Source: Glycomyces sp. L485 | Lineage (GTDB): Bacteria; Actinomycetota; Actinomycetes; Mycobacteriales; Micromonosporaceae | Length of the DNA stretch: 64,000 bases | Reading direction: 5' to 3' | Assembly: GCF_022548875.1 (NCBI RefSeq) | Contig: NZ_JAKZEW010000002.1 | Span: 898 to 64,897 of the forward strand | In this document: piece by piece, positions 10,784-18,936 of the stretch | How positions within the stretch are numbered: position 1 is the first letter of the stretch | How the letters are laid out: each line of letters opens with the position of its first letter | The notes under the pieces: generated by a model | What the model saw: only the letters and a program-made list of their open reading frames with translations | What the model was told of the DNA's origin: nothing | The model's database searches: none | Made by a program: the position numbers and the translations under genes

Positions 10784-11347
10784 ATGAGCTACCCCCCGCA
10801 TGCGTCGGTCCATTCACCCCGGAATCCGTACACGCCGCAGGGTGGGCGGCCCGGTCCGCCCCGCCGGAACATGGCGCTCGTCGGCGGCATCGTCGTCGGT
10901 TGCACGGCCTTGCTGCTCGGCTCGATCCTGATGGTGGCGTTCGTCGTCAACCGCGGCGGTGGGAACGCCGCGGCCGAGGATCCGGCGGAGACCACCGACG
11001 GTGCCGAGGAGGCCGGCATCGAGTCGGGGTCCAACGACCCCGAGGAGGTCGCGGTGACGGTGGCCGAGATCCTGTACGGCCTGAGCGGTGAGGGCTCGGA
11101 AGGCTATGTCTGCGCCGATCCGAGCTCCGCGCTCGCGGACGTCGAGCAGACCGGCGCCATCGCGGCCGAGATGCTCGGAGAGCTCAGTGAGCTGCTGGAG
11201 GGCGTCACCGCCACCGGTTCCTCGCGGGAGGGCGATGCGATGCTGGTGGACGTCGCGTTCATCGCCTCGGGGGCCCAGAGCCCGGCGGGCACGGTCGAGC
11301 TCGTCGTCGAGGACGGCCTGTGGAAGGCGTGCGACTTCACTTACTGA
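10784..11347 (+). CDS. Single-span membrane protein, first of three tandem relatives
   Basis: The 187-residue product has a Pro/His-rich cytosolic head and one span at about 30-54 (ALVGGIVVGCTALLLGSILMVAFVV). An acidic Ala/Glu linker and a small extracytoplasmic domain follow. The domain contains LVDVAFIASG and LVVEDGLWKACDF, a pattern resembling lipoprotein-type ligand or stress domains with a beta-hairpin end. The span is nearly the same as in the next gene (VGGIVVGCT vs IGGIVVGCT), which indicates common descent. The ectodomain differs from the other two and has only two Cys. Function is unknown. Confidence 0.75.
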   Translation: MSYPPHASVHSPRNPYTPQGGRPGPPRRNMALVGGIVVGCTALLLGSILMVAFVVNRGGGNAAAEDPAETTDGAEEAGIESGSNDPEEVAVTVAEILYGLSGEGSEGYVCADPSSALADVEQTGAIAAEMLGELSELLEGVTATGSSREGDAMLVDVAFIASGAQSPAGTVELVVEDGLWKACDFTY

Positions 11348-11395
11348 CGACCGGGGCCCTCGGAACGCATTGACACCGCCTTATAGCTTGGCATC

Positions 11396-12244
11396 ATGAG
11401 CGTCCCTCCGAACTACAGCGTTCCGCCCGAGCGCCCGCCGACCCCGGACTACGGGTTTCAACCACAGCATGGCGGCCCGACGGCCCCGGAGGATCCCAAG
11501 CCGCGCAACTACGCCCTCATCGGCGGCATCGTCGTGGGCTGCACCGTGCTCGGGCTCGGGACGATCCTGCTGCTCGCACTCGGGCTCACCAGGGGCGGCG
11601 AGGAGGCCGACCCCCCGGCCGCCGCGGCCGAGACGACCTCTGCGGCCGAGGAGGAGGCGACGACGCCCCAGGCCGAGGAGACCACGACCGAGGCCGCCGA
11701 CGACGAGATCGGCCGGTGTCTGATCCGCGAGCCCGCGATCATCGGGGACGGCCTGGAGCTGCTGGACTCCTGCGAGGACCCCGAGGCGTTCTGGACGATC
11801 ACGAACATGTCCTACGACGTCGACGCGGACGTCGACGACGAGGGGGGCCTGGCCGACACACAGGTCGCCTACGATCTGTGCGGCGAGGAGTACGGTGCCG
11901 CCCGGCTCGGCGAGACGTGGACGAACTGGCACTGGGTGTACTCCTCGGGCACGGTCGACTCCCTGTACTGCATCGAGGCGATCGGGAACCCCGACGACGA
12001 AGGGCGCCTGCCGTACACACCGGACACCGACGACTGCTTCCCCGACGCCGCCGAGTGGTGGATCGTCCCCTGCGACTCGGACCTGGCGGCCTACGAGGTG
12101 ACCGACACGATCGAGTTCGACGAGCCGCGGGAGCTCGACGACGACGAGGCCACGGCGGAGGCCGCCTGCGACAGCGATTTCTACTGGAAGGTAGTCGACG
12201 TCGAGGACCGCACCACCGCGATCCTCTGCGGCAACGAGCGGTAG
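11396..12244 (+). CDS. Membrane-anchored eight-cysteine surface protein, paralogue A
   Basis: The 282-residue protein has a Pro-rich head and a span at about 42-63 (ALIGGIVVGCTVLGLGTILLLAL). An acidic Ala/Glu/Thr linker leads to a C-terminal extracytoplasmic domain with eight Cys in the contexts GRC, DSC, LCGEEYG, YCIEAIGNP, DDCF, PCDSDL, ACDSD and LCGNE. The same eight positions recur in the next gene, so four conserved disulphides are likely. Hallmarks are CGEEYGAxxLGE, AIGNPDxEGR and EDRTTAILCG. Function is unknown. It lies 48 bases after the first relative and 57 before the next, each preceded by its own AT-richer spacer. Confidence 0.8.
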   Translation: MSVPPNYSVPPERPPTPDYGFQPQHGGPTAPEDPKPRNYALIGGIVVGCTVLGLGTILLLALGLTRGGEEADPPAAAAETTSAAEEEATTPQAEETTTEAADDEIGRCLIREPAIIGDGLELLDSCEDPEAFWTITNMSYDVDADVDDEGGLADTQVAYDLCGEEYGAARLGETWTNWHWVYSSGTVDSLYCIEAIGNPDDEGRLPYTPDTDDCFPDAAEWWIVPCDSDLAAYEVTDTIEFDEPRELDDDEATAEAACDSDFYWKVVDVEDRTTAILCGNER

Positions 12245-12301
12245 CGGGGCGAATGGGCCATTCCGCCCACCAGGACTGAGCATTGCTCATAGTCTGGGGC
12301 C

Positions 12302-13279
12302 ATGGTCGAGCCTCCGAACTACGGCAGTCCGCCACCGGGCCCCGATCCCCAGTACCAGTGGGGACGCGGACCCGAGCGGCCGGGCGGCCCTGGCCCGCCG
12401 CAGTATCCGCCGCCGGACCAGGACCCGGGCTTCGGACCGGGCGGCGCGCAGCCGCCCTACCCCCCTGGCGGTCCTCCCGGCGGTCCGCCGGGCGGCTATC
12501 CGGCCCAGTTCGGGCCGCAGGAGCCGCGCCGGAACCGGACTGGACTCATCATCGGGATCGTCATCGCGGCGGTCGTCCTCGTAGCGGCGCTCGCACTGCT
12601 CGGCCTGAGCCTGCTCGGCGGTGACGACGAGCCCGAACCCGGCGCGGCCGAGGACACCTCCGAGGAGGTCACGACAGAGGAGGAGCCCACGGAGGAGGAG
12701 ACCACCGCACCGCCCGCGGCCGGCGAGGCGGTCGGCCTGTGCCTGCCGCGCGAGCCGCAGGTCTCGGGATTCTCCTTCGACTTCGGCACCTCCTGCGACA
12801 GCGACGCGGCGTTCTGGGAGGTCACCGCCGCCTCCGGTGCGGTCGGCGCGAGCGTCGACACCGAAGGCAGGCTCGTGGACCCGCAGGCGGCCTTTCAGGT
12901 CTGCGGCGAGGAGTACGGGGCGTTCCAGCTCGGCGAGCTGTGGAAGGACTGGTACTTCACCTACGACGACGCGACACTCGTCGTCGAGGAGCTGTACTGC
13001 GTCCAGGCCATCGGCAACCCGGACCCCGAAGGCCGCGAGCCGGTCACGCCCGACACGGGCTCGTGCTTCGACGACTCCGACCACTGGTGGTCCGTGCCGT
13101 GCGACTCCGACCTGGCGCTGTACGAAGTGGTCGACACCCTCACCGTCGACCCGCCCGAGGAGATGAGCACCGACGAGGCGAACGACGCCTCGACGCCGTG
13201 CTCCGGAGGCGAGTTCTTCTGGCAGGTCACCGACGTGGAGGGCCGCACCACCGCGATCCTCTGCGGTGACGAGGTCTGA
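12302..13279 (+). CDS. Membrane-anchored eight-cysteine surface protein, paralogue B
   Basis: The 325-residue product has a long Gly/Pro/Tyr-rich cytosolic head (about 1-78), one span at about 80-101 (GLIIGIVIAAVVLVAALALLGL) and an acidic Glu/Thr linker. Its eight-Cys ectodomain is co-linear with that of the upstream gene: CGEEYGAFQLGE, YCVQAIGNPDPEGR, PCDSDLALYEV and EGRTTAILCGDE. Tandem duplication is the simplest explanation. It is convergent with pstB, whose last base is the next base, leaving no room for a terminator. Confidence 0.8.
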   Translation: MVEPPNYGSPPPGPDPQYQWGRGPERPGGPGPPQYPPPDQDPGFGPGGAQPPYPPGGPPGGPPGGYPAQFGPQEPRRNRTGLIIGIVIAAVVLVAALALLGLSLLGGDDEPEPGAAEDTSEEVTTEEEPTEEETTAPPAAGEAVGLCLPREPQVSGFSFDFGTSCDSDAAFWEVTAASGAVGASVDTEGRLVDPQAAFQVCGEEYGAFQLGELWKDWYFTYDDATLVVEELYCVQAIGNPDPEGREPVTPDTGSCFDDSDHWWSVPCDSDLALYEVVDTLTVDPPEEMSTDEANDASTPCSGGEFFWQVTDVEGRTTAILCGDEV

Positions 13280-17535: not shown

Positions 17536-18936
17536 TCACTCGCCTTCGGGCGCTTCCTCTTCCGCATCGCCGTCGACCTCGGCGCCGAGGAGGGTGAGGC
17601 AGTAGACGTCCTCACCGGCGGTGAGGGTCTCGCGGCCCGTGTCGGCGCATTCGGAGCCGTCGCCTACCTTCGAGGTGATCTGGTAGTCCTCGCCTTCGAC
17701 GGCCTCCTCGCAGTCGATGGCCTCTGCGGTGTCGCCGCCGCCGTGGCGAACGCAGCCGCCCTCTTCGAACGAGGGGGGCCGGAGCAGGAGGATCGCGGCC
17801 ACGGCGGCAGCGCCGATGACGACCACGGCGATGAGCGCGAAGACCGGGACGAGCCACTTCTTGCGGGTCTTCGCGGGCGGCGGCTGCTGCGGGTACTGGC
17901 CGCCGGGGCCCATCGGACCGGGCGGCGGGGCCATGCCCCCGCCGGGCGGGACTGAGCCGGGCGGCATCTGCCCGGGATAGGCGCCGGGCGCGGAGCCCGG
18001 ATACATGCCGGGCTGCTGCATCTGCTGCTGCTCGGAGGGCATCGGCTGCGCGGCCCCGTAACCGGGGGCCACCGGGCCGCGCGGTTCGCTCTGCGGCGAC
18101 TGGGCCCCGATGATGAGCCGCTGCGTGTCGTCGGACTGCGGCGGCGGGGGCTGCTGTCCTGCGGGCGGCTGCGGCGGCTGACCCGACGGCGGCAGACCTG
18201 CGTCCGCCGGCGGCATGACGGTGTTGAGGGGGTTGGGCGGGGGCGAGGGCCACGCCGCATGCGGCTGCTGCGACTGCGCCGGCGACTGGTGCTGGGGCTG
18301 CTCCCCGAAGGGGGCCGGCGGGTTGAAGCCGACGCCTTGGGCAGGCAGGACCTCGGTGGCCTCGTCCTCTACGTTCTTGGCCGGGGAGGGCTCGGGTTCC
18401 TTCGAGCCGGCCTGGGGAGCGCTGTAGCGCAGCACCGTGGTGCCGCCGTCTTCGAAGCGTTCAGGCGAGGGCTCCGGCGCGGGTTCGGCCGGGGCCTCGG
18501 CGCCCGGGGCGGCGGGGGCCGGCGGTTCCGGCGGGGCGGGCGGCACCTGCTCGGGAGCAGCGGTGTCGGCGGCCGGGGCGGCGGGGATCGCGATGTCGAT
18601 GGAGCCGGAGACGGGGATGGCCTGCGTGGCGCCCTCGTCGACGGTCTCGCTGGAGGGGGTCTCGGGTTCGGGGGCCGCGGTCTCGGCGGCTTCGGCCGCA
18701 TCGCCTGCGGACGCTTCGGCGGTCTCGGGTGCGCCGTTCGCCCCGGGGTCTGCCGGCGCGGCCTCGCTCTCGGCCGGCGCCGACTCGGAGGCTTGCGATT
18801 CGGCGGCTTCAGGGGCGCCCCCAGGCTCAGGGGCACTCTCCTGTGTGGTGCCGTCCTCGACGGAGGCACTGTTCTCGGGGGCCCTCGCTTCGGGGGTCTC
18901 GCCCTTGTCTGACGCGTTGCCTTGCTCGGAGGTCAC
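17536..18936 (-). CDS. Long disordered acidic/Pro-rich single-span membrane protein
   Basis: Of 466 residues, the first 350 or so are low complexity: an acidic Glu/Ala/Pro/Ser segment, then Pro/Gln/Gly-rich repeats. A single span follows at about 362-385 (WLVPVFALIAVVVIGAAAVAAILLL). The small extracytoplasmic end carries four Cys (GGCVRHGG, IDCEEA, SECADTG, YCLTLLG), probably two disulphides. The architecture parallels the three proteins at 10.8-13.3 kb (disordered cytosolic head, one span, Cys-rich domain). Such proteins are common in actinobacteria and lack assigned functions. The frame and start ATG 18936 are secure. Confidence 0.75.
   Translation of the reverse strand: MTSEQGNASDKGETPEARAPENSASVEDGTTQESAPEPGGAPEAAESQASESAPAESEAAPADPGANGAPETAEASAGDAAEAAETAAPEPETPSSETVDEGATQAIPVSGSIDIAIPAAPAADTAAPEQVPPAPPEPPAPAAPGAEAPAEPAPEPSPERFEDGGTTVLRYSAPQAGSKEPEPSPAKNVEDEATEVLPAQGVGFNPPAPFGEQPQHQSPAQSQQPHAAWPSPPPNPLNTVMPPADAGLPPSGQPPQPPAGQQPPPPQSDDTQRLIIGAQSPQSEPRGPVAPGYGAAQPMPSEQQQMQQPGMYPGSAPGAYPGQMPPGSVPPGGGMAPPPGPMGPGGQYPQQPPPAKTRKKWLVPVFALIAVVVIGAAAVAAILLLRPPSFEEGGCVRHGGGDTAEAIDCEEAVEGEDYQITSKVGDGSECADTGRETLTAGEDVYCLTLLGAEVDGDAEEEAPEGE

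Follow-up and report, generated by a model that had tools for sequence, protein, structure and literature searches.

A duplicated four-cysteine unit of LppU/SCO3897 kind in anchored proteins of Glycomyces sp. L485, found in related genomes also on kinase, caspase and Hsp70-like proteins

The locus and its four proteins

The window, by which we mean the whole stretch of 64,000 nucleotides that was analysed, comes from the 4.4-Mb genome of Glycomyces sp. L485. It contains three adjacent open frames on the forward strand (P1, P2 and P3) and a fourth gene (P4) on the reverse strand, and their features, in window positions, are as follows.

10784..11347, forward: P1, 187 aa; Pro-rich head, single span (about 10886-10948), ectodomain with two Cys that does not resemble the eight-Cys ectodomain
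11396..12244, forward: P2, 282 aa; Pro-rich head, single span (about 11519-11581), tandem four-Cys units
11699..11989, forward: P2 unit 1; Cys 108, 126, 162, 192; end approximate
12011..12241, forward: P2 unit 2; Cys 214, 226, 258, 278; 15.3 bits with NF049863, short of its cut-off of 25
12302..13279, forward: P3, 325 aa; Pro/Gly-rich head, single span (about 12545-12607), tandem four-Cys units
12722..13018, forward: P3 unit 1; Cys 147, 165, 201, 233; end approximate
13040..13276, forward: P3 unit 2; Cys 255, 267, 300, 321; NF049863 13.7 bits (P3 ectodomain), below cut-off
17536..18936, reverse: P4, 466 aa; long Pro-rich head, single span, lone four-Cys unit
17578..17769, reverse: P4 unit; Cys 395, 409, 430, 446; limits approximate

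The initial annotation had described P1 to P3 as three adjacent genes, each encoding a Pro-rich head and one span, and the frames, the proline content of the heads (24% in P1, 29% in P2 and 35% in P3) and the hydrophobic stretches (exactly one in each protein) agree with it. A single predicted span is shown for each of P1 to P4. The three genes are flanked by an aldehyde dehydrogenase (ALDH) gene and a convergent pstB gene (TIGR00972, 382 bits against a cut-off of 343), and the order ALDH-P1-P2-P3-pstB-like is kept in Glycomyces arizonensis, with the neighbours judged by eye. Between the two species, differences at the three codon positions number 45/59/78 for P2 and 69/68/112 for P3. As these differences in P2 and P3 fit coding genes and the gene order is kept, the genes P1 to P3 look real. 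A role in phosphate uptake, considered from the pstB neighbour, was dropped; pstB is convergent, and none was seen by eye beside three paralogues.

In the tree, P2 and P3 fall into separate supported clades (95/91 and 100/99) of four rows each, and both clades contain rows from G085, from a metagenome-assembled genome (MAG) and from G069, whose P2 and P3 sequences are those of G. arizonensis DSM 44726. The pair therefore predates the split of these genomes.

P1 resembles P2 in its head (14 of 28 positions identical) and span (20 of 33); the two spans, previously called nearly identical, are thus alike, but that wording was too strong. Identity in the ectodomain is 97/181 between P2 and P3, 31/114 between P1 and P2 and 28/122 between P1 and P3, and the ectodomain of P1 is no nearer to that of P2 than to that of P3. 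With two Cys in its ectodomain and one in its span, P1 has no eight-Cys domain; it seems to combine the head and span of a P2-type protein with another ectodomain. Five of the 22 Glycomyces genomes have strong matches to P1 (E <= 2e-21), and 12 have matches at E <= 0.01. The strong ones adjoin eight-Cys genes in G000, G069, G085 and G398, and in G397 the P1 match and P2 lie on different contigs, the P2 contig ending there. The Rv0361_Cterm family gave P1 an E value of 0.13 (12.5 bits) and two P1 orthologues 0.0039 and 0.16 (17.4 and 12.2 bits), in no case reaching the curated cut-off of 37 bits. As a side observation, P1 (10784-11347) is a candidate for an ectodomain swap.

The eight-cysteine ectodomain is a tandem of four-cysteine units

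That the last two genes share an eight-Cys ectodomain, as had been proposed, is borne out by their 97 identical residues, by the alignment of all eight Cys and by the motifs CGEEYG, AIGNPD and RTTAILCG, each present in P2 and in P3. Cysteine conservation extends to homologues: all eight Cys co-align in 9/9 proteins of the initial comparison, and in an alignment of 30 rows (A2) seven of the Cys columns have no exception, and the eighth lacks a Cys in a single row (L038), which had been cut before its last Cys, present in the full sequence as C369. By GTDB kinship 25 of the 30 rows come from the genus (the MAG included), so the rows are not independent, and the alignment of the cysteines covers the compared proteins and the A2 rows rather than each of the 86 full-length matches in the genus. 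The unit also retains conserved non-Cys residues.

We cut A2 between Cys 4 and Cys 5 and compared the two halves by hhalign. They aligned with a probability of 89% and a score of 35.1, in a register that pairs C1 with C5, C2 with C6, C3 with C7 and C4 with C8. None of 200 column shuffles reached this score (maximum, 20.7), nor did any of 200 shuffles with the Cys columns fixed (maximum, 19.2). A structure prediction had been among the suggested checks, and in the AlphaFold2 prediction for the P3 ectodomain (pLDDT 94.7, pTM 0.86) one fold occurs twice, strand-helix-strand-strand in residues 32-96 and again in residues 134-184. When P3 unit 2 was modelled by itself, the order of elements was kept (pLDDT 85.9, pTM 0.70). 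Sequence comparison and model together show the predicted ectodomain of P2 and P3 to be a tandem duplication of a four-Cys unit.

A survey of copy number and clustering, likewise suggested beforehand, gave full-length matches to the eight-Cys profile in all 22 genomes of the genus (3 to 6 each, median 4, total 86), among them seven neighbouring pairs. In 21 of the 22 genomes, a partial match over unit 2 lies no more than 1.5 kb from a full-length match; the two such partners that were read (L089:4836-5609 and L091:3363-4184), both beside an eight-Cys gene, have one four-Cys unit each. Outside the genus, matches to profile A1 occurred in 3 of 95 further family genomes (9/101 overall) and matches to the A2 profile in 10 of 290 genomes of the order, the match being confined to unit 2 in 9 (18/298 overall). 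The counts within the genus support the earlier proposal that the P2/P3 group is an anchored, diversified surface family. The source genome also holds a further eight-Cys-like match (L088, G000:C23:50-385; profile positions 2-120), which is ended by a contig edge.

Relation to the LppU/SCO3897 family

The initial annotation had found no named domain with this cysteine pattern. This did not hold, as the eight Cys form two units homologous to NF049863, the NCBIfam model of the LppU/SCO3897 family, which describes a domain of 64 positions and has a curated cut-off of 25 bits. P2 and P3 score 15.3 and 10.1 bits, both below the cut-off. In the source genome, five of the seven matches at E <= 1 fall in eight-Cys paralogues, and two of these five lie in one protein, one in each half; at the same threshold the model also matches E. 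coli and Haloferax, two of the 14 control genomes, so weak matches alone prove nothing. At E <= 1, NF049863 recovers 26 of the 30 eight-Cys ectodomains (lowest E, 1.8e-8), and four other families match one ectodomain each.

Profile comparison was made with a reference set of the 30 best-scoring LppU/SCO3897 domains from other genomes, a set that is not random. The N half scored 30.9 (82%) over 37 columns, two of them Cys, and the C half 24.1 (51%) over 46 columns, three of them Cys; four controls were run, some with Cys fixed, and in every one 0 of 200 shuffles reached these scores. The alignments of the halves to the set are partial. The two models meet in a bridge protein (L083:4553-5485, genome G004), which scores 56.4 bits with NF049863, over the cut-off and in two stretches, and is also retrieved, over positions 2-181, with the eight-Cys profile (E 2e-10). 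A profile search, as had been recommended, thus supports homology to NF049863 by profile comparison, but leaves P2 and P3 themselves under the cut-off.

Counted from the start of the domain, exactly eight Cys are present in 26 of the proteins at the top 30 NF049863 loci and four Cys in the other 4, and at 15 of the loci a second gene of like kind lies within the fetched 3.2 kb. A head, a span, eight Cys and clustering therefore make up a usual layout in the LppU/SCO3897 family. Within the order, NF049863 was found in 163 of 298 sampled genomes (160 over the cut-off), and across the phylum in 21 of 396 drawn genomes, all within one class; 0 of 14 controls matched in either survey. The family and P2/P3 have in common the unit G-D-C...C...A-x-x-x-V...C...C, which is mostly present twice, giving eight Cys. 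Judged by eye, what precedes the units is a Pro/Gln-rich head with a span or else a lipobox, and paralogues are often adjacent. P2 and P3 differ from the family in their unit 1, which is longer (C1-C2 18, C2-C3 36 and C3-C4 30 to 32 residues). By sequence and model, the four-Cys unit of P2 and P3 is shown to be a homologue of NF049863, and the two proteins are assigned to a branch of LppU/SCO3897 that we call divergent because their scores lie under the family cut-off. The eight-Cys surface proteins do not represent a new domain and belong to a named but uncharacterised actinobacterial family.

P4 had been described as of like architecture. Its layout is indeed that of P2 and P3, but it has four Cys only, in one unit. 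Against the LppU/SCO3897 set this unit scored 24.0 (53%), with 0 of 100 shuffles reaching that value in each of two controls, and a distant relative of P4 (L127, E 2e-7) scores 29.7 bits with NF049863, over the cut-off. Neither half of the eight-Cys ectodomain was matched by P4 (scores, 15.7 for the N half and 8.6 for the C half). Two of seven other P4 matches (L128 and L129), which are without the four Cys, were taken as chance. P4 carries a single predicted unit of LppU/SCO3897 kind.

Searches of other databases gave P1 to P4 no Pfam-A match up to E 5. Among PDB sequences the best match to P3 had an E value of 0.84 and the unit profile retrieved nothing up to E 1. By fold, the best PDB match to the tandem had a Foldseek E value of 0.26 and a VIA-align Z of 3.1 (rmsd 5.2, 60 aligned), and for the single unit the values were E 0.46 and Z 3.4 (rmsd 4.3, 52 aligned; copper-binding domain of APP). 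Such scores mark the fold neither as new nor as known. The result that had been put forward as overturning the initial annotation, namely that the ectodomain matches some known CHARACTERISED domain, was obtained in part: the family has a name, but our literature search found no functional study of LppU/SCO3897. It found no paper on SCO3897, and the matches for LppU were mostly unrelated by title. Rv2784c, which we take to be LppU, appeared in the literature found only as a listing, with no functional account. In a BCG biofilm table, lppU has a fold value of -3.4 (PMC7387457).

Enzyme fusions and a proposed recognition role

In the genus, the four-Cys unit is also shown by sequence at the C termini of predicted Ser/Thr kinases, as a single unit, and of an EACC1-type caspase and Hsp70-like proteins, as a tandem. 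Of 14 partial matches not adjoining a full-length one, eight were picked as kinase candidates by their long open frames (L193-L198, L202 and L210; seven genomes of the genus), and all eight are Ser/Thr kinases that end in a single unit, with Pkinase E values of 8e-38 to 1.2e-33 and a span, seen by eye, between kinase and unit. An alignment of the kinase units with two single-unit proteins scored 49.6 against the N half and 53.0 against the C half, and 0 of 100 shuffles reached these scores in each control; directly against the LppU/SCO3897 set the match was weak (19.2, 9.5%), with 0 of 100 shuffles reaching it. Among the 298 genomes of the order, eight have the kinase-type unit, and all eight belong to this genus. 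The kinase domain of one candidate (L196) is nearest to the PASTA-kinase model, at 212.8 bits against a cut-off of 450 and over residues 34-294 only.

The caspase, encoded outside the window (L085:1391-3160, reverse strand), reaches the cut-off of the EACC1-associated caspase model NF047832 (143.9 bits against 140) and continues with a span (by eye) and tandem four-Cys units, which score 21.5 bits with NF049863, below its cut-off. Ahead of it lies a gene for a 136-aa one-span protein (L085:3160-3570, reverse strand), with no NCBIfam match up to E 0.01, which looks like the EACC1 gene as the accessible text of PMC7159879 presents it. Two further proteins (L037:79-2037, forward strand, and L200:2091-4253, reverse strand) have an Hsp70-type domain (E 4e-33 and 2.8e-31) followed by the tandem four-Cys ectodomain; one of them scores 21.9 bits with NF049863, under the cut-off. 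The unit is shown by sequence also at the ends of genus proteins with a putative lipobox, of which six were recognised by eye (L030, L031, L032, L045, L046 and L047).

In the source genome, no long-frame fusion was present among the seven unit matches at E <= 1e-3 (212 to 381 residues), and a signalling reading of P2 and P3 therefore rests on their relatives. Five NF049863 matches with long frames outside the genus (L078-L082) were checked for fusions. L078 holds four double-unit proteins, one of them in a longer frame; a lone unit, with no kinase visible by eye, is present in each of L081 and L082, and neither L079 nor L080 matched the profiles of this study. The fusions were named in no paper that our literature search found, a weak negative given its thin coverage of subscription journals, and no paper was found on kinases or cysteine-rich membrane proteins of Glycomyces.

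The reading that we favor, with a probability of about 0.6, is that P2 and P3 are anchored extracytoplasmic proteins with two units of LppU/SCO3897 kind and that the unit is a recognition module. The C-terminal parts of P2, P3, P4 and the fusions would lie outside the cell, with the cysteines of each unit paired as disulfides, and the Pro-rich heads would be cytosolic, like the enzymes of the fusions. Each unit would recognize a cell-envelope ligand or a partner protein; in the fusions, binding outside could be relayed to the kinase, caspase or Hsp70 inside, and the free forms (P2, P3, P4 and the lipoproteins) may bind as partners, assist as co-receptors or compete for a like ligand.

By analogy, a small Cys-paired unit that occurs alone or in tandem on anchors, lipoproteins and enzyme proteins is best read as a putative outer recognition module; the closest parallel to this sharing is the PknH-type sensor. 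In the accessible text of PMC4118811, the outer domain of the mycobacterial PknH-type sensor has two disulfides and is common to a Ser/Thr kinase and lipoproteins. This sensor was absent from the Pfam matches of the 30 eight-Cys members up to E 1 and from the fold-search matches listed, although such searches do not exclude it. To our knowledge, PASTA repeats are without a four-Cys pattern, and no Pfam PASTA match was found among the 30 members. PASTA repeats of PknB-type kinases, which serve in cell wall sensing, are likewise small repeated outer domains on Ser/Thr kinases with one span, whereas their fold is beta3-alpha (accessible text of PMC6213207). The two-gene EACC1-caspase conflict system offers a third comparison: as far as the accessible text of PMC7159879 describes it, a caspase with a span and an extra C-terminal domain stands behind a short one-span gene, as at L085, but the outer part described there is a periplasmic-binding-protein domain and that of L085 is the tandem four-Cys ectodomain. 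That close relatives of the four-Cys unit occur on the predicted outer side of kinases, a caspase and Hsp70-like proteins suggests a module for sensing or recognition.

A broader version, which we put forward tentatively and would not expect to hold in full, makes the unit a general actinobacterial envelope sensor that was added in Glycomyces and its kin to a kinase, a conflict-system caspase and an Hsp70-like ATPase, with the free tandems P2 and P3 as co-receptors or decoys; a single class of envelope ligand would then act on growth signalling, on cell suicide and on the quality control of proteins.

Three other explanations were weighed against the recognition module. P2 and P3 might be passive parts of the envelope or cell wall, such as spacers or helpers in secretion or assembly, with no sensing and with the unit serving as an outer anchor in the fusions. 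The Pro-rich heads, the several paralogues per genome, ALDH and pstB neighbours that are unrelated in kind and a failure to recognize any enzyme motif by eye would all suit such parts; however, fusion to three distinct signalling or effector enzymes is the usual pattern of an input domain, and residues of the unit other than Cys are conserved, and we regard a passive role as possible but rather doubtful. That the unit and Septum_form (PF13845) make up one superfamily with a role in cell division is improbable. Nine aligned Septum_form stretches (L142-L146, L151-L153 and L156) also have two sets of four Cys, yet the profile scores of 20.5 for the tandem, 19.2 for the LppU set and 20.9 and 13.1 for the halves are about those of the shuffle maxima of other profiles (17 to 21), and Septum_form matched 9 of 41 relatives and 0 of 22 genomes of the genus. 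A new domain whose likeness to LppU/SCO3897 reflects convergent Cys spacing would account for the sub-threshold scores of P2 and P3 and for the finding that no Pfam-A family matched more than 2 of the 30 members up to E 1, but it is very hard to reconcile with Cys-fixed shuffles that never attained the observed scores (0/200 each), with a bridge protein matched by both models across the tandem and with NF049863 matches in 26 of the 30 members.

What is new here is that in the genus all eight long single-unit frames examined encode Ser/Thr kinases and that the tandem occurs fused to an EACC1-type caspase and to Hsp70-like proteins. The family is common (over the cut-off in 160 of the 298 genomes sampled from the order), yet no function was found for it in the literature searched. 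With the eight Cys traced to two repeats of a unit that also ends these enzymes, surface proteins that have been nameless become candidates for envelope sensing that can be tested.
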